A stretch of 26,381 bases of DNA, taken from positions 1 to 26,381 of IMG/VR virus record IMGVR_UViG_3300020469_000223, one strand, 5' to 3'. Positions 2,511-19,255 of the stretch are shown here, in pieces; within the stretch, counting starts at the first letter, position 1; every line of letters begins with the position of its first letter. The position numbers were made by a program, and so were the translations under genes. Below the pieces are notes generated by a model, which did not search any database, was not told the origin of the DNA, and saw only the letters and a list, made by a program, of their open reading frames with translations. This DNA comes from a virus.

Positions 2511-3233
2511 ATGGCTTTGCCGTTAGTGAATGCGTCTAAGTACGAGGCGACTATACCAAGTACTGGACAGGTGATTGAGTTTAGACCTTTCTTAGTTAAA
2601 GAAGAAAAACTCCTTATGGTAGCTTTAGAATCGAAAGATGATAAACTTATTGTAAGAACAATGAAAGATATATTAAATTCATGTATCTATGCAGATATTG
2701 ATATTAATACTTTTACTACTTTCGATTTGGAAGAACTCTTTTTAAGACTTCGATCAAAATCAGTGGGAGAGAAAGTAGAATTAAAATTAAAATGTGAAGA
2801 ATGTAACTATGAAAACCCACAAACAGTAAACCTCGATGAAATAGGAATCGACCCGGTTACTGAAAAGAAGAAGAATATTGTTATGATTAATGATGAAGTT
2901 GGTATTGATTTTAGATATCCAGCGTTAAAAGATATAGAAAATCTTAACGTTACTGCTGATGGAGATACTAAAGAACAGCTGAGAGTGATGAATGGAATTA
3001 TTATTAAAAGTATTAAAAGTATTTTTGATAATGATAATGTTTATCCAGCATCGGACCAGAGTGATGAAGAACTGGCTGAGTTTATAGACAATTTAAACTC
3101 TACACAGTTTAAGAATATTACTAACTGGATTAGTGAGATGCCACAGTTGATTCATAATATAGAATATAAGTGTAACAAATGCGGACACGAGAATAAATTG
3201 GAGTTAAGAGGTCTCCAAAGTTTTTTTACTTAG
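2511..3233 (+). CDS. 26: Baseplate hub assembly protein gp26-like; probable tail assembly chaperone
   Basis: This 240-aa protein resembles the T4 gp26 baseplate family. The N-terminus ALPLVNASKYEATIPSTGQV is followed by EFRPFLVKEEKLLMVALES and an acidic helical region. Two CxxC pairs, C95/C98 (KCEECNYE) and C221/C224 (KCNKCGHEN), would form a zinc ribbon. An AGGAGAATAA Shine-Dalgarno region lies just upstream of the ATG. The 3' end carries seven T residues (3221-3227) phased as T TTT TTT, with the stop codon one codon later. The -1 frame is open through the stop for 65 more codons, suggesting a frameshift product of about 304 aa. The tape measure gene lies downstream, as for other phage tail chaperone genes. 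Confidence 0.78.
   Translation: MALPLVNASKYEATIPSTGQVIEFRPFLVKEEKLLMVALESKDDKLIVRTMKDILNSCIYADIDINTFTTFDLEELFLRLRSKSVGEKVELKLKCEECNYENPQTVNLDEIGIDPVTEKKKNIVMINDEVGIDFRYPALKDIENLNVTADGDTKEQLRVMNGIIIKSIKSIFDNDNVYPASDQSDEELAEFIDNLNSTQFKNITNWISEMPQLIHNIEYKCNKCGHENKLELRGLQSFFT
3221..3227 (+). other. Putative programmed -1 ribosomal frameshift site (T TTT TTT)
   Basis: The heptamer is in the canonical X XXY YYZ phase relative to the gp26-like frame, one sense codon before its TAG at 3231-3233. A Shine-Dalgarno-like AGAGG at 3207-3211 lies nine bases upstream, close to the spacing of the stimulator in dnaX. I see no convincing downstream stem-loop. Confidence 0.6.
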
Positions 3234-3424
3234 GCCTTTCACATGATAATCTCGTAAACCATTTTAAAACTAATTTTGCAATGATGCAGAATCACGGTTA
3301 TAGTTTAACGGAATTAGATAATATGTTACCATGGGAAAGGGAGATATATGTCGCCCTACTAGTAGAACACATTAAAGAGGAGAATGAGCGTAATAAGGCT
3401 CAACAAAGAAAATGGAAGAGTTAA
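3227..3424 (+). CDS. -1 frame extension of the gp26-like protein (or separate small ORF from 3281)
   Basis: This frame is open from before the gp26 stop to the TAA at 3422-3424. It encodes 65 residues from YLGLSHDNLV through YSLTELDNMLPWEREIYVAL to a charged end. The composition is clearly protein-like and I recall similar sequence after gp26 in marine T4-like phages. The first ATG in frame (3281, followed by another at 3284) has no visible Shine-Dalgarno sequence, which favours expression as a frameshift fusion. The end overlaps the next ATG (3412) by 13 bases. In siphophages the equivalent fused domain (T of gpG-T) links the chaperone to tail tube or tape measure; that role is inferred here. 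Confidence 0.65.
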   Translation, partial: YLGLSHDNLVNHFKTNFAMMQNHGYSLTELDNMLPWEREIYVALLVEHIKEENERNKAQQRKWKS

Positions 3425-3747
3425 AAAAAGAAGAAGTTAAAACAAGTTATCACCCAGCCGATACCAACGGCGATGGTAAAGTAAGTAGAAAAGAACAAGA
3501 TATGTACTTAGAGTTTAAAAGAAAAGAACTTGAAGATGCTGATGCAATGAGAGATGCACAAAGAAAAATGGCATGGTTTGCATTAGGTGGAATGTTGTTA
3601 TATCCATTTGCAGTAGTACTCGCAGTTCTTGTAGGATTAGATTCTGCCAGTAAAATACTAGGAGATATGGCGGCGACTTACTTCGTGGCTGTAGCTGGTA
3701 TTGTGGCAGCATTCTTTGGTTCACAAGCTTTCTCAAATAAAAAATAG
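3412..3747 (+). CDS. Small membrane protein with an EF-hand loop
   Basis: This 111-aa protein carries a textbook EF-hand calcium loop near the N-terminus: D17, N19, D21, G22, K23, S25 and E28 in DTNGDGKVSRKE. A charged amphipathic helix follows, then two hydrophobic segments (about residues 53-76 and 83-107). The N-terminus is probably cytoplasmic or in the virion, with a hairpin in the membrane. It lies between the gp26 extension and the tape measure, so it may belong to tail assembly or be an ejected membrane protein. A holin-type role is possible from the two-helix layout, but nothing specific supports it. Confidence 0.75.
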   Translation: MEELKKEEVKTSYHPADTNGDGKVSRKEQDMYLEFKRKELEDADAMRDAQRKMAWFALGGMLLYPFAVVLAVLVGLDSASKILGDMAATYFVAVAGIVAAFFGSQAFSNKK

Positions 3748-11920: not shown

Positions 11921-12482
11921 GACCAACTTTATTCATGACATCTAGGTTATTAACAACTGCTATAGTTAGTAGACTATTTGCCACTATCATTTGATCATTA
12001 TTGTATGTATGCCATATGATACTACCCATCAATAGTTTTAATACTACTATTTCACCTGCTGATGGTCTTTTTCCAAGAATAGGATTTGCCTCGTAAACAT
12101 AAGGACTTTTAAGACCATGGTAAGTTGTAAGTGCGTCCATTGTATTAATGAAGATAAAGTACGATTGTGTTTTTACTTTGTTATCAAGGGGTAAAAATTG
12201 TAACCCTTTCGGATTTACCTTTAACTTGTATGTTATCAACTCGCGAGAAGCTTCTCTCTTTACACTTTCCAGCAGTGAATTGTGATAACAACACTCGAAC
12301 CCCATCATAATTTCTTGTTTGGCCTTCGAGTCTAGCCGCGAGGTTAACGGCATCTCCAATGACGGAATAGTCAAATCGAGATTCTGATCCCATGTTTCCG
12401 ACGATGCAGTCGCCGGTATTGATACCAATGCCAACATCAATACGAGGTAACCCCTTTTCTTCAAGTTCTTTAATAAGTTCAT
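11913..12482 (-). CDS. Small membrane protein (DUF5658-like) whose frame overlaps the cyclase gene
   Basis: The C-terminal part, MDALTTYHGLK...YEANPILGKRPSAGE followed by two hydrophobic stretches, resembles small DUF5658-type membrane proteins (D-x-x-T-T and EANP motifs). It is the part I trust. The frame stays open for 299 bases inside the cyclase gene. Its first ATG (12482) has GAGG six bases upstream and encodes a signal-peptide-like start (KNLKKRGYLVLMLALVSIPA, then TASS). So the true product may be a 189-aa secreted or membrane protein overprinted on the cyclase. Alternatively it may start near 12143 as about 76 aa. Start uncertain. Confidence 0.5.
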   Translation of the reverse strand: MNLLKNLKKRGYLVLMLALVSIPATASSETWDQNLDLTIPSLEMPLTSRLDSKAKQEIMMGFECCYHNSLLESVKREASRELITYKLKVNPKGLQFLPLDNKVKTQSYFIFINTMDALTTYHGLKSPYVYEANPILGKRPSAGEIVVLKLLMGSIIWHTYNNDQMIVANSLLTIAVVNNLDVMNKVGLL

Positions 12483-14010
12483 CTGCGGCCTCTAATATTT
12501 CTATTGATGTATCTACGGCTAATTCCGCATGATTATTGCAAGGTAGAGGAGCATTCCAAAATGCCATGATACAGTCTCCCATATACTTGTCAATTGTTCC
12601 ACCATTCTTTAATATAATTTTAGTCATGGTGTCCAAATAACTATTTATAATATTGACAAGCCCTTCAGGGTCATTATTATTTTTATAGTGTTCTGATATT
12701 GGAGTAAACCCTACAATGTCCATGAATAGGAATGTCATTTCTTCTCTTTTACCACCTAACTTTAATAGAGAAGGATCTTTTTGTAATAACATAACTTGTC
12801 GTGGATCAAGGTAAGTTTCAAACTGTTTCTTAATTTGCTGTCTTAACATATATTGTTTATAAAAGTTATTAAAACTGCCTGAGGTAAAGGTTATTATATA
12901 TAATATTAATGAATATGTAAGGTCAAGGAGCATATACCATTTATTCCAAACATAATAAACAGTTAAGACTGATCCGAAACAAACGGCCAGAAATCCGATT
13001 CCAGAAGCCCAAACAGGTGCCCGATATATTAACAGGACTAGAAAAGCAGCAAGAACTGTCGATACGAGAATTTCTATTGCTGCCGTCCACAGAGGACGTG
13101 AAATGGAGTTCTCATCTAAAACAGTCTGAATCGCAGAAGCCTGTAATTGATGAGCAGACTGAAGACCAACTGGAGTTGGAATTTGAGAAGCCAATCCAGA
13201 TGCAGTTAAACCTATCAGAACAATCTTACCATCAAGATTAGGTAATTCTGATCCATATTCTATTTCATTAAAAGTATAATTAGTATTAATCCATATTGAA
13301 CCATTTGGATCAGTAGGTATCTGAAACGGTCTTAAAATAATTTCTTCGATTCCAACATCATTTACTTTAATAGTATAAGAAGGTTTATTGTTTGCAACTC
13401 TTATAAGTTCTAATGTAAATGACGGATATAATTGATTGTTTATATTTGATAAAAGTGGTATTCTTCTTACTACTCCATCAACTTCTGGCATTCCATTTAT
13501 TAATCCATGCCCCCATGCACCAGCCTCTATCTCTGGTATATTAGTAACTAGACCATCATATTTTATAACCCAATCATTAGGTTCACCTGTTCCAAATATT
13601 GCTGTTCCCACATACGGGGCACTTTTACTTCTACCTCGTGGGTCTGCATCTTGAGATAGTATAACTCCATTATCCTTTATCCATGATGCAAATACTTCAT
13701 CTCCACCAAACCTATCAGATTCAGGAAACATAATGGTAAACCCAATAAGTCCAGCATTTGCATTTCTTAAATCGGAAATCATTTGTGCAAACTGTTGCCG
13801 AGGAAAAGGCCATTGACCATATTTTTCCAGTGCTTCCTCACCTATATTAATTAAAACTATATCTTCGGATTTTTTATCTGGTAATGATTGAATATATTGG
13901 TCGAATACTACCAATCTTATTTGTTGGACTATATCTGGATCCGATATACGAATGAATAATCCTAAAACTATTATTGCAATAGTAGTCCATATTGATGTTA
14001 TATATTTCAT
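12184..14010 (-). CDS. CHASE2-domain class III adenylate cyclase
   Basis: This 608-aa membrane enzyme has an N-terminal helix (about residues 5-20) and a periplasmic CHASE2-type sensor (about 25-310; VVFDQYIQSLP, LINIGEEALEKYGQWPFPR, and PNLDGKIVLIGLTASGL at its end). Three hydrophobic helices follow (about 313-395), then a cyclase domain (about 421-608). Catalytic positions are present: metal-binding D431 (FMDIVGFT) and D479 (KYMGDCIMAF), base-selecting K475 and S549 (DYSVIGD), then N556 and R560 (VNLAARLE). K plus S/T at these sites points to ATP and the IIIb type. The ATG overlaps the IscA stop by four bases. Product would be cAMP; the signal sensed is unknown. Confidence 0.92.
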   Translation of the reverse strand: MKYITSIWTTIAIIVLGLFIRISDPDIVQQIRLVVFDQYIQSLPDKKSEDIVLINIGEEALEKYGQWPFPRQQFAQMISDLRNANAGLIGFTIMFPESDRFGGDEVFASWIKDNGVILSQDADPRGRSKSAPYVGTAIFGTGEPNDWVIKYDGLVTNIPEIEAGAWGHGLINGMPEVDGVVRRIPLLSNINNQLYPSFTLELIRVANNKPSYTIKVNDVGIEEIILRPFQIPTDPNGSIWINTNYTFNEIEYGSELPNLDGKIVLIGLTASGLASQIPTPVGLQSAHQLQASAIQTVLDENSISRPLWTAAIEILVSTVLAAFLVLLIYRAPVWASGIGFLAVCFGSVLTVYYVWNKWYMLLDLTYSLILYIITFTSGSFNNFYKQYMLRQQIKKQFETYLDPRQVMLLQKDPSLLKLGGKREEMTFLFMDIVGFTPISEHYKNNNDPEGLVNIINSYLDTMTKIILKNGGTIDKYMGDCIMAFWNAPLPCNNHAELAVDTSIEILEAADELIKELEEKGLPRIDVGIGINTGDCIVGNMGSESRFDYSVIGDAVNLAARLEGQTRNYDGVRVLLSQFTAGKCKERSFSRVDNIQVKGKSERVTIFTP

Positions 14011-14315
14011 ATATCAAATTGGACGCTTACACCGCATCCACAACTGCTTACTTCATGTGGATTTAAGAATTTAAAATATTCTTGTAAACCCTCTTGTACA
14101 TAATCCAAGGTCATACCTTCTATGTATGGTTTACTTTCTTGATCAATTAAAATATTAAATTTACCATAATCGATTACTTCATCGCCATTTCTAACTTGAT
14201 CTTCGGCAAAGATATACTCAAATCCTGCACAGCCACCACCAGTTATACCTACTCTTACTGAATTGATATTTTTTTCTACTAATTTAACTATTGCTTGGTC
14301 TGTTAATTCTATCAT
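14007..14315 (-). CDS. iscA: A-type Fe-S cluster carrier (IscA/HesB family)
   Basis: This 102-aa protein has the three invariant cysteines of the IscA/ErpA/SufA family: C29 in GITGGGCAGFEY, and C92 and C94 in SSCGCGVSV. The length is standard. It would accept or deliver Fe-S clusters, probably from the neighbouring IscU. Its ATG overlaps the IscU stop and its stop overlaps the cyclase ATG (ATGA), so the three genes are coupled. HesB-like genes are known in marine T4-like phages. IscA, ErpA and SufA cannot be told apart safely from this sequence. Confidence 0.93.
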   Translation of the reverse strand: MIELTDQAIVKLVEKNINSVRVGITGGGCAGFEYIFAEDQVRNGDEVIDYGKFNILIDQESKPYIEGMTLDYVQEGLQEYFKFLNPHEVSSCGCGVSVQFDI

Positions 14316-14755
14316 TACATTCCATTTTCAGGATATAGTTGATTATGTTTTCTATATTTAGTTTTTTCTTCCCAATGCTCAATTGCCTTTTTAATACTAT
14401 CTTCGGCCAAAACTGAACAATGTATTTTAATTGGTGGTAACTCCAATGCATCTGCTATATCTTTATCTTTTACAAGTTTGGCCTCGGCTATTGTTTTTCC
14501 TTTTAACATTTCAACAAACATTGTTGACGATGCAATTGCCGAACCACACCCATATGTTTTAAACTTAACGTCTAGTATTTCTTCACTATCTGGATCCAAT
14601 TTTAAATCTAATTTCATTACATCACCGCATGCAGGAGCACCTGACAGGCCTGTTGCAACATTAGGATCATTTGGATCAAATCTACCGACTGAATGTTTTT
14701 CTGGATTGTTTAAAACTGATTCAAACCTTTCTATTACTTTTTTACTATATGGCAT
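14315..14755 (-). CDS. iscU: Fe-S cluster assembly scaffold IscU
   Basis: This 146-aa protein closely resembles bacterial IscU (128 aa in E. coli). It has C43 with D45 (GAPACGDVMKL), C70 (KTYGCGSAIASS) and the K110-x-H112-C113 loop (LPPIKIHCSVLAED), so all cluster ligands and the LPPxK chaperone-recognition motif are intact. It should build [2Fe-2S] clusters with a cysteine desulfurase; no IscS is visible here, so the host enzyme would be used. A short N-terminal insertion (NNPEKHSV) and an extended C-terminus distinguish it. It is coupled by overlaps to the membrane gene upstream and to iscA. Confidence 0.95.
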   Translation of the reverse strand: MPYSKKVIERFESVLNNPEKHSVGRFDPNDPNVATGLSGAPACGDVMKLDLKLDPDSEEILDVKFKTYGCGSAIASSTMFVEMLKGKTIAEAKLVKDKDIADALELPPIKIHCSVLAEDSIKKAIEHWEEKTKYRKHNQLYPENGM

Positions 14756-15028: not shown

Positions 15029-15721
15029 TTAATTACCCTGTGAAACGTTTATTGTACAACCGCCTACTGTATAACAATTGTTGGTAATAGTATAACTCAT
15101 ATTCGTACTACCTTGTTGTAATAAATTTAATGTTGTTGGTTCAGTTCCTTGTAATCTTATTTGAGAATTATGATTTGCACTTCCTTTTTGCATGAGGTCT
15201 ACTGATGAACCATCAGCTGTTCCATAGAAGTATGCATGTGAATAATGAGAACCTCCGCCTTCTTGCCATGATTCGACATTAGTATCATCAGCATGTACAT
15301 CTAAATTTAATGTATGCGAACCGTGCTGATAAACATCTACAGTATTATCATTACCCCATAAATGCCTACCATAAGTTGCACCATCATATTGTAATACTGT
15401 TTCGTCATTACCTGTACCATCAACATCTCCACCCCATGATTTACCTGAACCCCAATATGATACCCAGGATATAGAATTACCTGAACCATTTTGAGTTAAA
15501 TTAAATGAATTACTTGCATGAGCAAAAGAAAAATCTATTGAATTACCATAACCTATTTGAGTTACATTTAAATTAAGATTATCTCCATTGCCGACTTGTT
15601 CAACATGAATATGGTTATCATCTGTTGGTCCTGCGTATAATGGCATTGCTAAAAAGACACACGCACCCCACGGCAGTATCCAGTATTTAAAAAATTGTTG
15701 TTTTATTTTAGTCCAGTTCAT
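15029..15721 (-). CDS. Curlin-repeat secreted protein 1
   Basis: This 230-aa protein has an N-terminal signal sequence (ILPWGACVFLAMPLYAG). Repeated curlin-type units follow: VEQVGNGDNLNLNVTQIGYG, FNLTQNGSGNSI, VYQHGSHTLNL, DLMQKGSANHN, LLQQGSTNMSY and a final INVSQGN. The Q-x-G-x-x-N spacing is that of CsgA/CsgB amyloid subunits. A two-cysteine loop (CYTVGGC) precedes the last repeat, as in its paralogue at 16789. It would be exported through CsgG and form fibres. TATAAATA ends five bases before its ATG, so it also has its own late promoter. Irregular repeats make it a divergent curlin. Confidence 0.78.
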   Translation of the reverse strand: MNWTKIKQQFFKYWILPWGACVFLAMPLYAGPTDDNHIHVEQVGNGDNLNLNVTQIGYGNSIDFSFAHASNSFNLTQNGSGNSISWVSYWGSGKSWGGDVDGTGNDETVLQYDGATYGRHLWGNDNTVDVYQHGSHTLNLDVHADDTNVESWQEGGGSHYSHAYFYGTADGSSVDLMQKGSANHNSQIRLQGTEPTTLNLLQQGSTNMSYTITNNCYTVGGCTINVSQGN

Positions 15722-15726
15722 ACTTC

Positions 15727-15734
15727 TATTTATA
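15727..15734 (-). promoter_or_regulatory. T4-type late promoter 5 nt before curlin protein 1
   Basis: TATAAATA on the minus strand (15734-15727), followed by GAAGT and the ATG at 15721. Transcription would begin at the start codon. It lies just beyond the FecR stop and would give extra mRNA for the genes from curlin 1 to the cyclase. Confidence 0.58.
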
Positions 15735-16835
15735 CTAGTTTTGATTTATAATTACCATAATATCTTCGCCATCATTACCTGTAATAATACCTTGATATCC
15801 AGGAGTTGTTGTGTCTAATGTAAAACTACCACCTGCAGCAAATTCAATTTCTATTAATCCATTTACATTACGATATAATACTAAATTACCATCTCGTAAA
15901 AATACATTAAATTGTGATTCATCATTTAAACCTCTTCTTGCACCTTTAATATCAAACTCGCCCAATGTATCAAATAAATCACCAGAATCAACTATTGCCA
16001 AAAAGTCTAATAAAAACTCAACATCTAATTCATCAATATCAAGTTCACTAAATTCGTCCAACTCATCTTCTGCTAATTCATCTTCTTCTAATTCAGTAAA
16101 CTCTAAGAAGTCGATATCAAGTAATCCTTGGTCTTCGTTCTGTTCGTCCTTAAGTTCTTCCTCTATTCTTTGTTTTACTTCTGCCGGTGGATTTACAATA
16201 AACATATTATCAATTAAGGCTGGTGTAATACCAGTAATTACAGTTGAAGATGTTGGTGGACTATCTGTAGTAGTAACCATAGTTGCTGCATATGCCTGAT
16301 CAAGTGTAACTGTTCCTGCTGCATTTGATACTTCGATTACTCCTGATGGATCACCTTTATCGTCAGGTAATAATATTACTAAGCTTCTACCTAGTTCATC
16401 TATTGTTGTAGTAAAATCTGTGCCTCTAACTGCTATAGTTGCAGTAGGCGTTTGTATACTAATATTTGCATTATTAACTAGACCTAATTTTCCTGATGCA
16501 AAACGAGCAGTACCCATTGCCATTTTTAATGACATTTTGGATAAGTTTGGATTAGGGTCGTAGTATATCTCGTCTATTAAAACGAGAGAGTGTTCTTTAA
16601 GTTGTAATTCTGCCTTATCTAAGAATTCAATTAACATACGGCCTTTGGCAGTTTGGGCCTGGTCGTATAGTTCTATAGTTTCGGTTTGTATTGTTTCTTT
16701 ATCGCGTAATATTGAATTTACGCCAGATGCTTCGCGAACTTCACCAATAGGGTTAGCGAAACTAACCCCACTGATGAGTAGTAAAAGACTAGCTGTCGTT
16801 GCCGGCGTCTTTTTGATTAAGTTGAATAATCGCAT
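15735..16835 (-). CDS. FecR-domain periplasmic protein
   Basis: This 366-aa protein has a signal peptide (KKTPATTASLLLLISGVSFA) and a FecR domain over about residues 28-180. Landmarks are GRMLIEFLDKAELQLKEHS, then GTARFASGKLG and ISIQTPTATIAVRGTDFTTT, with GVIEVSNAAGTVTL after. An extremely acidic stretch follows (about 222-290, ELEEDELAEDELDEFSELD), then a beta-rich C-terminal part. FecR domains usually act as periplasmic sensors or scaffolds. I recall FecR proteins next to CHASE2 cyclases in bacterial genomes, which fits this operon. It overlaps the end of the curlin 2 gene by 47 bases and has no clear Shine-Dalgarno sequence, so it may rely on coupling. Confidence 0.88.
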   Translation of the reverse strand: MRLFNLIKKTPATTASLLLLISGVSFANPIGEVREASGVNSILRDKETIQTETIELYDQAQTAKGRMLIEFLDKAELQLKEHSLVLIDEIYYDPNPNLSKMSLKMAMGTARFASGKLGLVNNANISIQTPTATIAVRGTDFTTTIDELGRSLVILLPDDKGDPSGVIEVSNAAGTVTLDQAYAATMVTTTDSPPTSSTVITGITPALIDNMFIVNPPAEVKQRIEEELKDEQNEDQGLLDIDFLEFTELEEDELAEDELDEFSELDIDELDVEFLLDFLAIVDSGDLFDTLGEFDIKGARRGLNDESQFNVFLRDGNLVLYRNVNGLIEIEFAAGGSFTLDTTTPGYQGIITGNDGEDIMVIINQN

Positions 16836-17520
16836 TATCTGATGTAACTGTTAATACAATATTTGCATTAGGTGTTGCACAAGGCGAACCTCCAACACAA
16901 GTACCAGATATTTGATTAATATCAACATCTGCAGAATCACCTGTTAAAGTGAATTCTAGGTTATGTTCACCATCTTTTTGCAATGTATTTATATTGTTAC
17001 TGTCACCAGTAATTTCAAAATCCCATATGTTGTCGTCTGATTCCCAGTCAACGTCAAAGACATTTGAATTACCAATTAATATTAAATCAGCATTTAATCT
17101 TTCTGCACTTAAACCATAACCTTGATCCAAGTCAAAGGTGTTTGAATCACCTGTAACGTCAAAGTTTATATCTGAGTCGTCTGCACTACCAACGTTTCCG
17201 ATATTCCAATCTATAACATTTGAATCACCTGTAAAATCTAGCTTATAAGTTGAACTATCTGCTACAACAGGACCAAATAATATATTTTGGTTACCAGCGA
17301 AATCTAAATCAAATTCTAAACTTGAACCTGTAATAGCCATTACAGAACCTGACCCACTTGAAAAGTTATCTCCGCCGATTTTGTTACCAAAACCGATTTG
17401 ATCTACATATAATTTAAGTGTATCACCAGTTTGTGTGATTTTAATTTCGTTATCATCAGTGGCTTGTGCGAAAACAAAAGATGTCGACAATAGTATTACT
17501 ATACTTAAAAGTTTATTCAT
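16789..17520 (-). CDS. Curlin-repeat secreted protein 2
   Basis: A 243-aa protein with a clean signal peptide (MNKLLSIVILLSTSFVFAQA). Units such as IKITQTGDTLKLYVDQIGFG follow, with many TGDSN turns (TGDSNVIDW, TGDSNTFDL, ITGDSNNINTLQKDGEHN). The repeats are Asp/Asn rich and likely form a beta-solenoid or amyloid, as in CsgA/CsgB. The N-terminal TDDNEI...DQIGFGNKI and a two-cysteine loop (GTCVGGSPCATP) match the layout of curlin protein 1, so they are paralogues and possibly nucleator and major subunit. It overlaps the csgG stop by eight bases. Confidence 0.8.
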   Translation of the reverse strand: MNKLLSIVILLSTSFVFAQATDDNEIKITQTGDTLKLYVDQIGFGNKIGGDNFSSGSGSVMAITGSSLEFDLDFAGNQNILFGPVVADSSTYKLDFTGDSNVIDWNIGNVGSADDSDINFDVTGDSNTFDLDQGYGLSAERLNADLILIGNSNVFDVDWESDDNIWDFEITGDSNNINTLQKDGEHNLEFTLTGDSADVDINQISGTCVGGSPCATPNANIVLTVTSDNAIIQLNQKDAGNDS

Positions 17521-18484
17521 TTTCGTTTACCTCTTCCTTTAATGGATGTTTCTCGTTTTTCCCATTTATTTGATGGGGGTGACGATGTCCATCCTCAATT
17601 ACCCAGAGCTTTCTATCATGACCCTGGTAGATTAATTCCAGTACGGCAGCTTCAATTGCTGTTCGTACCGCGTATGTCACGGACTCATTATTACCCACTC
17701 CGTCCTCATATTCTACTAGAGTAGTGCTATTATCCACAAATCGGAAAATATCCCCACTGCCACCATAACTAAGAATTGTTTTCTTAGCTTGGACATTCAA
17801 TAATACTTCACCTGTTAGAACTGAAACAGCTCTTACAGATACGGTTACGACATCTTGCGTATATCGTTTACTTTTACCAATACCCAATAGCCGTGCGCCT
17901 CGGCCTCCTGATTGAATATTAGTATCGTATCCAATAATTCCACCTTCCATAATTATTCCAGCGAATAGGAGTGGATTTAATGGTTGCGGACCACCGTCGC
18001 CCGCAAAATCTTGTCTTGCACTTCTGATTATCTGACGTTCTCTTACCAGATGATCAATGCCTTGTCTTTCTACTACTCTAAACCAGGTTCCTCCACCTGC
18101 TGTTTTAAGAGCATCTATTAGTAATTCTGTTCCACCTTGTGTAGTGGCTGTAGAGAAATCAGCAATACCTTCTCTTGATTTTCTTTGTCCTGTTTTATCT
18201 TGGAAGCCATACACTGCCACAACTGGTCTATCTTTAGCTGGTGGTAAATCTAGTAATTTAATATATGAAGGAAGTCTTACTGCCTCTGCTTCTTCTACAC
18301 AAATATGATGTTTTCTTTGTGTATTCTGCCATATAAATTTTGCAGAATTCTTAGATGCTGTTAATGCATCTACTACTTCTTCAAATTCTATTTCCTTACA
18401 CTCTTCTGGTTGATTAGACCAAACTGGTGTAGAGGATTCGTTCATTAGTCCTAAGACCATTAATAATATTAAAACGCCTTCCAT
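17513..18484 (-). CDS. csgG: Curli secretion channel CsgG
   Basis: This 323-aa protein aligns well by eye with E. coli CsgG. Landmarks are VVAVYGFQDKTGQRK, FSTATTQGGTELLIDALK, FRVVERQGIDHLVRERQIIR, LLFAGIIMEGGIIGYDTNIQ, SGGRGARLLGIG, AKKTILSYGGSGDIFRFVD and a C-terminal RTAIEAAVLELIYQG. CsgG forms the outer-membrane pore for curlin export. Differences: there is no LxxC lipobox, so it may not be a lipoprotein. An extra region before the core (about residues 27-75) holds C29 and C62. A charged His-rich tail is added. Its ATG overlaps the csgF stop (TAATG). Confidence 0.94.
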   Translation of the reverse strand: MEGVLILLMVLGLMNESSTPVWSNQPEECKEIEFEEVVDALTASKNSAKFIWQNTQRKHHICVEEAEAVRLPSYIKLLDLPPAKDRPVVAVYGFQDKTGQRKSREGIADFSTATTQGGTELLIDALKTAGGGTWFRVVERQGIDHLVRERQIIRSARQDFAGDGGPQPLNPLLFAGIIMEGGIIGYDTNIQSGGRGARLLGIGKSKRYTQDVVTVSVRAVSVLTGEVLLNVQAKKTILSYGGSGDIFRFVDNSTTLVEYEDGVGNNESVTYAVRTAIEAAVLELIYQGHDRKLWVIEDGHRHPHQINGKNEKHPLKEEVNENE

Positions 18485-18990
18485 TATCCGCTATCCGAAT
18501 CTTGCCCAAAATTACCAGTCCCTACAGGTATTTCAATAACAGTTGTTGTTCCATCTGAATCAACAATTGTCATTTTAATGTATTCCGAACCATCTTCATT
18601 TGTAATAACTTCATATGTTACTGTATTACCTTCTAAAACAAATGATCCATATCTTACCGACCCATCATTACTAAACATTGATTCTACTAATTGTTTAGAC
18701 ATTTGAGCGTAAATTCTTGATTCTAAGTTTCGAATGAACTTAGCCATTGTTGTATTCTCTGCGTCTCTTTCGGCTGCCTTTCTTGCAGCTTCCATGGCAT
18801 CTTTTATCGCCTTTTTACGTGCATGTTCCTGGTTTTCTACTGTTAAATAATGAGCACCAGTTCCTATACCACTAAAGGAGGGATTTTTAAATTTATGTGT
18901 GATATCTGCAGCAAATGCTTTTGGTGATATTGCCATAATACTTATTACAAATATCGTAACAAGTACAGATAATTCAAGTCTATCTTTCAT
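18484..18990 (-). CDS. csgF: Curli assembly factor CsgF
   Basis: The mature part begins FKNPSFSGIGTGAHYLTVEN, matching the CsgF start (FRNPNFGG...GAFLL) that inserts into the CsgG pore. A helix with RNLESRIYAQMSKQLVESMF follows, then two strands ending in TVIEIPVG. CsgF couples secretion to fibre nucleation at the cell surface. A long charged helix (HARKKAIKDAMEAARKAAER) is inserted relative to E. coli. I place the start at 18990 because it gives a normal signal peptide (MKDRLELSVLVTIFVISIMA). ATGs at 18999 and 19029 are also in frame and would enlarge the overlap with the upstream gene. Directly followed by csgG. Confidence 0.88.
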   Translation of the reverse strand: MKDRLELSVLVTIFVISIMAISPKAFAADITHKFKNPSFSGIGTGAHYLTVENQEHARKKAIKDAMEAARKAAERDAENTTMAKFIRNLESRIYAQMSKQLVESMFSNDGSVRYGSFVLEGNTVTYEVITNEDGSEYIKMTIVDSDGTTTVIEIPVGTGNFGQDSDSG

Positions 18991-19255
18991 CTTTTCCATT
19001 ACCTCTATTCTTTCGCTTTTTCTTTTCATTTTCTCTATATTCTAAAACTACATTTACTTTTTGTTGTAATCTTATCAAATCTTGATCCAACATCCTTGTC
19101 TGATCAATAACTCTTATAAGAGCCATGTGCATTTCATCTAACTTCGGCTCTATATGTTCTCCAATATACCACCAAACATAATATATAAAATATCCTAAAC
19201 CTACGGACATCACAATTGGAAACCCGTAGTCAGAAACTAATTGACCTACATCCAT
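18980..19255 (-). CDS. Membrane-anchored coiled-coil protein (91 aa)
   Basis: This 91-aa protein has one N-terminal hydrophobic segment (GFPIVMSVGLGYFIYYVWWY). A helical region follows (LDEMHMALIRVIDQTRMLDQ) that reads as coiled coil, ending in a very basic tail (KKKRKNRGNGKDER). I recall close relatives in marine T4-like phages. The layout recalls small BhlA-type holins, but that role is not shown. It overlaps the next gene upstream by one base and precedes csgF, so it may belong to the same transcript without belonging to the curli system. Confidence 0.68.
   Translation of the reverse strand: MDVGQLVSDYGFPIVMSVGLGYFIYYVWWYIGEHIEPKLDEMHMALIRVIDQTRMLDQDLIRLQQKVNVVLEYRENEKKKRKNRGNGKDER

Follow-up and report, generated by a model that had tools for sequence, protein, structure and literature searches.

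Does the T4 gp26-like gene of an uncultivated marine-type T4-like virus end at its own stop codon, or is it also read past that codon in a second frame? The question is raised by an IMG/VR virus record of 26,381 bases from an uncultivated virus (all of which was analysed and is called "the window" here), in which the gp26-like open reading frame closes with ...TTA AGA GGT CTC CAA AGT TTT TTT ACT TAG and an overlapping -1 frame runs on beyond it. Our analysis of this locus and its relatives makes it highly probable that programmed -1 ribosomal frameshifting on the T run makes a short and a long form of a tail assembly chaperone from one gene. The features discussed are collected in Table 1.

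Table 1. Features of the window, in order of position
Feature	Position	Strand	Basis
gp26-family gene, putative short form of the tail assembly chaperone (TAC-N), 240 aa	2511-3233	+	PF12322, E 1.7e-62; phrog_150, E 8.7e-65; AF2 mean pLDDT 92
AGAGG, resembling a Shine-Dalgarno sequence and ending 9 nt before the heptamer; possible stimulator of frameshifting	3207-3211	+	sequence
Slippery heptamer T_TTT_TTT, in phase with gp26	3221-3227	+	sequence; TTTTTT(T/C/G) kept in 268/268 loci
C-terminal domain in the -1 frame (gp51 family, putative TAC-C), 67 aa plus stop	3221-3424	+	phrog_634, E 4.1e-28
Short-form stop codon TAG, separated from the heptamer by one sense codon (ACT)	3231-3233	+	sequence
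Small conserved ORF with EF-hand-like loop (DTNGDGKVSRKEQ) and hydrophobic segments, outside the frameshift unit	3412-3747	+	likeness to HTVC008M; weak EF-hand matches only
Presumed tape measure protein, 587 aa	3759-5522	+	position only
Curlin-repeat protein	15029-15721	-	
FecR-domain protein	15735-16835	-	
Curlin-repeat protein	16789-17520	-	
CsgG	17513-18484	-	
CsgF	18484-19029	-	

The slip site and the -1 frame in the window

From 3221 to 3421 the -1 frame contains no stop codon, and it closes with one at 3422-3424 (product FFYLGLSHDNLVNHFKTNFAMMQNHGYSLTELDNMLPWEREIYVALLVEHIKEENERNKAQQRKWKS); a ribosome that slipped on the heptamer is predicted to read FFYLGLSHDN... and so on through 65 further codons to that stop. 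Fused to this extension, the gp26-like protein would become a long form of about 304 aa, a product predicted from the nucleotide sequence. No start codon was found 5' of the heptamer in the window's -1 frame, and the earliest one anywhere in that frame is an ATG at residue 21, which has no Shine-Dalgarno match. Among the window's genes this is the only in-phase T_TTT_TTT, and it is also the sole in-phase A/T heptamer that lies within eight codons of a gene end. Taken alone, the window sequence is weak evidence for frameshifting, because its runs of seven T's are not above chance (16 found, 30 expected) and open stretches of 65 codons occur at 7.7% of its + strand positions.

An earlier reading made from the letters alone (the sequence-only reading) had described a T TTT TTT in phase one codon before the stop, an AGAGG nine bases upstream of it, and a protein-like -1 frame, open for 65 codons, whose own ATGs have no ribosome binding site; from these it proposed a short/long arrangement like that of lambda gpG/gpGT. 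The anatomy is as it described. The proposed arrangement gains support from the domain make-up of the T4 proteins gp26 and gp51.

Identity of the two parts

The protein encoded up to the TAG codon belongs to the T4 gp26 family; it scores 211 bits against PF12322, where the curated cut-off is 24.5, and its PHROG match is to the family that contains T4 gp26 and is labelled 'baseplate hub'. The -1 frame product, whose relationship went unrecognised in the sequence-only reading, is by sequence similarity a member of the gp51 family. It aligns with positions 56-119 of the 121 in the phrog_634 profile ('baseplate hub assembly catalyst'), and 764 phage records match it, mostly T4-like cyanophages, pelagiphages, rhizobial phages, and Vibrio, Aeromonas and Klebsiella phages. 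In public records the gp26 and gp51 parts are usually annotated as separate genes, with gp51 beginning at an arbitrary downstream start, and sometimes the gp51 part carries no annotation at all.

The AF2 model of the gp26-like protein is confident, and in BFVD it matches predicted structures of gp26-family proteins widely. Among solved structures it has no significant match (2ob9, the tail assembly chaperone of HK97, is among those listed, with E 2.4 and a probability of 0.30), so the fold is not proof of chaperone identity. The model of the -1 extension is all-helical (mean pLDDT 84), and a search of solved structures by sequence returned nothing for either domain.

Conservation of the heptamer among relatives

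Loci holding both a gp26 and a gp51 part were drawn from IMG/VR, GTDB genome contigs and annotated phages; there are 268, of which 213 are distinct, and they span the Kyanoviridae, the Pootjesviridae and the KVP40-/Aeromonas 65-like Straboviridae. The gp51 part is in the -1 frame relative to gp26 in every one of the 268, and every one carries TTTTTT(T/C/G) in phase and precisely where the alignment places it (88 TTTTTTT, 121 TTTTTTC and 4 TTTTTTG among the distinct loci). A heptamer found in phase at the same aligned position throughout is far beyond chance; per-sequence probabilities were not multiplied, since the loci share ancestry. Clustering at 70% protein identity nevertheless leaves about 57 groups. 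The queries of the later scans included slip-site residues, a source of recruitment bias, and for this reason loci that were recruited solely by gp26 peptides far upstream of the site were counted separately; all 54 distinct loci of this kind have the heptamer. The conserved slippery site that the sequence-only reading suggested looking for in the gp26 3' ends of relatives is thus present. That reading had also named what would speak against it, namely relatives that lack the heptamer or have a separate start with a Shine-Dalgarno sequence, and almost all relatives, the window included, show neither.

Codon use at the site is constrained as well. The residue that precedes the Phe-Phe pair may be S, N, D, A, G or H, and the third base of its codon is T in every locus. 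The first Phe codon is TTT in all loci, with a pooled TTT share among Phe codons of 71%; in the 23 loci above 42% GC TTT makes up 30% of Phe codons, yet the first Phe codon of the heptamer is still always TTT. One sense codon separates the heptamer from the gp26 stop in 188 of the 213 loci and none does so in 21, and in two loci the stop has moved nine codons 3' with the heptamer remaining at the join.

Evidence on how the -1 frame is translated

The alternative that survives best, although we regard it as improbable, is that gp51 is a separate small protein, made from its own start or by termination-reinitiation at the gp26 stop, with the T run merely coding for Phe-Phe. It agrees with the public annotation of phages such as Mosig, HTVC008M and Melnitz, where gp51 figures as a short gene of its own that starts further downstream, with an overlap of the gp26 stop and an ATG in rhizobial and KVP40-like phages, and with the presence of an ATG or GTG within seven codons past the slip site in 17 of the 213 loci. 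The codon use of the heptamer, on the other hand, goes beyond what a Phe-Phe pair requires, and starts are scarce where such a protein would need them: in 207 of the 213 loci the -1 frame contains neither ATG nor GTG nor TTG 5' of the heptamer, and no locus has an ATG with a Shine-Dalgarno sequence there. In 27 loci a stop codon of the -1 frame stands directly before the heptamer, so that the open frame begins at the slip site and has no other entrance. The first start codon of the frame lies 10-21 residues downstream in most loci, usually at residue 10 or 20, and the residues ahead of it are conserved at 94-98%; an ATG with a Shine-Dalgarno sequence falls within the first 25 residues in just nine of the 213.

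The residues ahead of the usual first ATG are moreover maintained by selection as protein. Over codons 4-19 of the -1 frame, which run from the gp26 stop to that ATG, pN/pS is 0.16 (0.14-0.18), which shows purifying selection in that frame; read in either of the other two frames the stretch gives 1.8 and 2.5. Across the remainder of the extension the value is 0.157, and such equality on the two sides of the usual first ATG is the mark of translation that runs on unbroken from the slip site, which argues against a start at that ATG. Among relatives the extension is conserved and, outside the minority with a start within seven codons past the slip site, has no independent start, as a frameshifted chaperone of the gpG/gpGT type should. 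A further point against a separate small protein is that T4 gp51 carries the C-domain fused to an N-domain (below).

The overlap of the gp26 stop with an ATG of the -1 frame, in the form TGATG or TAATG, is seen in the rhizobial and KVP40-like phages L167, L168, L169, L177, L178, L171, L174 and L175. All loci with a nearby in-frame start, these phages included, retain the heptamer; in this minority reinitiation could add a separate product.

Slippage by RNA polymerase is less probable still, and we consider it very unlikely. On this explanation bases would be added or dropped at the T run so that gp26 and gp51 came to lie in one frame in the mRNA. Runs that support transcriptional slippage are usually longer than six T's, and 125 of the 213 distinct loci have only six (TTTTTTC or TTTTTTG). 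The -1 product would also need a one-base insertion or a two-base deletion. In its favour, the site is a T homopolymer, and such runs are known to allow recoding by a slipping polymerase (PMC5009743). Finally, an assembly or sequencing error in the homopolymer, a kind of run prone to length errors, which would have split what is truly one in-frame gene, is already refuted by the identical relative phase in all 268 contigs and cultured genomes, and the short form exists as a gene of its own in T4, Tulanevirus and Slopekvirus.

Proposed mechanism and candidate stimulators

Programmed -1 frameshifting, the reading we hold to be highly probable, would operate as follows. Unslipped translation would yield the short form of the chaperone (TAC-N, of the T4 gp26 family); a minority of ribosomes would move back one base on T_TTT_TTT, where both Phe-tRNAs could re-pair to TTT_TTT, and these ribosomes would bypass the TAG and read the 65 codons of the -1 frame to give a long form that ends in a C-domain of the gp51 type. 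If the parallel with lambda gpG/gpGT holds, a large number of short subunits and a small number of long ones would coat the tape measure protein and recruit tail tube subunits. Our analysis shows the anatomy of the site, its conservation, the selection on the -1 frame and the homology to T4 gp26 and gp51; the slip, its rate and the action of the products as chaperones are inferred. Counting against the frameshift reading is a report that in E. coli U_UUU_UUU shifts far less readily than A_AAA_AAG (PMC5009743). The lack of a predicted RNA structure 3' of the site in the window, the non-significant fold match to the HK97 chaperone and the positional nature of the tape measure assignment also weigh against it.

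The AGAGG element is suitably placed for a stimulatory Shine-Dalgarno sequence and may possibly be one. Pairing to the anti-Shine-Dalgarno sequence 5' of the heptamer is -5.28 kcal/mol in 77 representatives, against -4.50 kcal/mol in a synonymous null (Wilcoxon P 0.001); the excess is slight and the AGAGG shares bases with a Gly codon that is invariant in the 'RGLQ' motif, so that this is weak evidence for a stimulator. On the 3' side of the site local folding is stabler than in synonymous shuffles (z -1.27 +/- 0.22, 76 representatives); the corresponding z is about 0 in the later part of the extension and lies between -0.2 and -0.4 within gp26.

RNAalifold found no structure in 77 sequences, and none was predicted 3' of the site in the window itself (z +0.80). 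A candidate hairpin of 11 bp, from +26 to +51 nt counted from the heptamer start, is possible in about a quarter of the representatives (L093, L103 and L136 are examples); it shows some compensatory changes and is absent from the window. As a single structure conserved across the loci it was rejected, with 67.2% paired against 65.3% in shuffles and a covariation score that was reached by 14 of 500 shuffles; it has 7.0 pairs where the synonymous null gives 6.2, a small excess. We treat a hairpin 3' of the slip site in some loci as a lead only.

Downstream genes and other features of the window

The sequence-only reading placed the frameshift site before the tape measure gene. The site is indeed upstream of the presumed tape measure gene, but not next to it, since a small ORF intervenes between the two; over 98 aa that ORF shares 74% identity with the one that Pelagibacter phage HTVC008M has in the corresponding place. 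The tape measure identity of the 587-aa product is presumed: no Pfam or PHROG family passes for it, and it is marginally like the product of the HTVC008M gene at the matching place, which is annotated 'putative tail tape measure' (E 0.001).

Elsewhere this phage fragment carries a curli-type secretion cluster on the - strand (15029-19029). Adjoining it, on the same strand, is the gene for a 608-aa protein with CHASE2 and adenylate/guanylate cyclase domains (12184-14010), and two overlapping - strand genes at 14007-14755 encode iron-sulphur cluster assembly proteins, one IscA-like (Fe-S_biosyn) and one NifU_N/IscU-like.

Comparison with T4 and other known systems

The two parts of the window's gene have parallels in two T4 genes. 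T4 gp26 aligns to the short form (it ends ...RGLKEFFELL where the window gene ends ...RGLQSFF), and T4 gp51 aligns to the entire long form, with a gp26-like N domain followed by the same C-domain. Pfam family PF12322 takes in both T4 proteins, and in PHROGs gp26 falls on phrog_150 positions 14-235 and goes no further, whereas gp51 covers the full profile (positions 13-280) and matches phrog_634 as well. A profile of the frameshift-type N-domains matches T4 gp26 (4e-26) and gp51 (8e-6); a profile of the C-domain matches T4 gp51 (8e-8) and its long-form counterparts in Tulanevirus (5e-13) and Slopekvirus (6e-10), with nothing above background against the short forms of T4, Tulanevirus and Slopekvirus. 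T4 gp26 is thus N only and gp51 N plus C; T4, the other Tevenvirinae, Tulanevirus and Slopekvirus have two separate, diverged genes for the two forms, where the window phage and its group have one gene with a -1 frameshift site. Some T4-like phages are known to have one short gene and one long fusion gene in place of frameshifting (PMC10885494), and a 2016 review excepted T4 from the G-T frameshift (PMC5009743). Assembly of T4 needs gp51, yet the finished particle lacks it (PMC3004832), as expected of a chaperone.

We suggest, tentatively, that the poly-T frameshift is ancestral and has been kept in the Kyanoviridae, the Pootjesviridae and the KVP40-/Aeromonas 65-like phages, that the T4 subfamily lost the slip site after duplication into gp26 (N) and gp51 (N plus C), and that a 3' hairpin tunes the ratio of the two forms in some marine lineages. 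The 'baseplate hub subunit' and 'baseplate hub assembly catalyst' that are routinely mis-annotated in hundreds of marine T4-like phages would, on the frameshift reading, be one frameshifted chaperone gene, and the long-obscure T4 gp26 and gp51 would gain a concrete, testable role.

The lambda slip site is G_GGA_AAG, as against T_TTT_TTT in the window, and no sequence similarity of the window proteins to lambda G/T was found. The layout nonetheless resembles that of lambda gpG/gpGT, where a short protein and a C-terminal extension reached by -1 frameshifting are encoded ahead of the tape measure region (PMC5009743); in the window the tape measure gene is a presumed one. The Vandenendeviridae and Andersonviridae likewise have a -1 frameshift at a T-rich motif near the end of a myovirus TAC-N gene, conserved across the two families; these are other phages, and their motif is GTTTTT as against T_TTT_TTN here (PMC12846349).

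The closest precedent is the work of Vladimirov, Gautam & Davidson (Virology 2022, 566:9-15), who identified the T4-like tail chaperone genes (TAC-N / TAC-NC) and who are credited with poly-T slip signals in T4-like TAC-N genes (PMC12846349). As their findings are reported in the papers that cite them, the phenomenon is already known and the window is a further member; the statement in the sequence-only reading that such a site had not been described for the gp26 family does not stand. What the present alignment of 213 distinct sites, with its three heptamer variants, offers is a data set on the needs of -1 frameshifting in cyanobacterial and SAR11 hosts. In those accounts the T4-like TAC-N / TAC-NC system has short and long chaperone forms as proposed here, and the visible difference is one of scale and host; the breadth of conservation found here strengthens the known T4-like chaperone frameshift.
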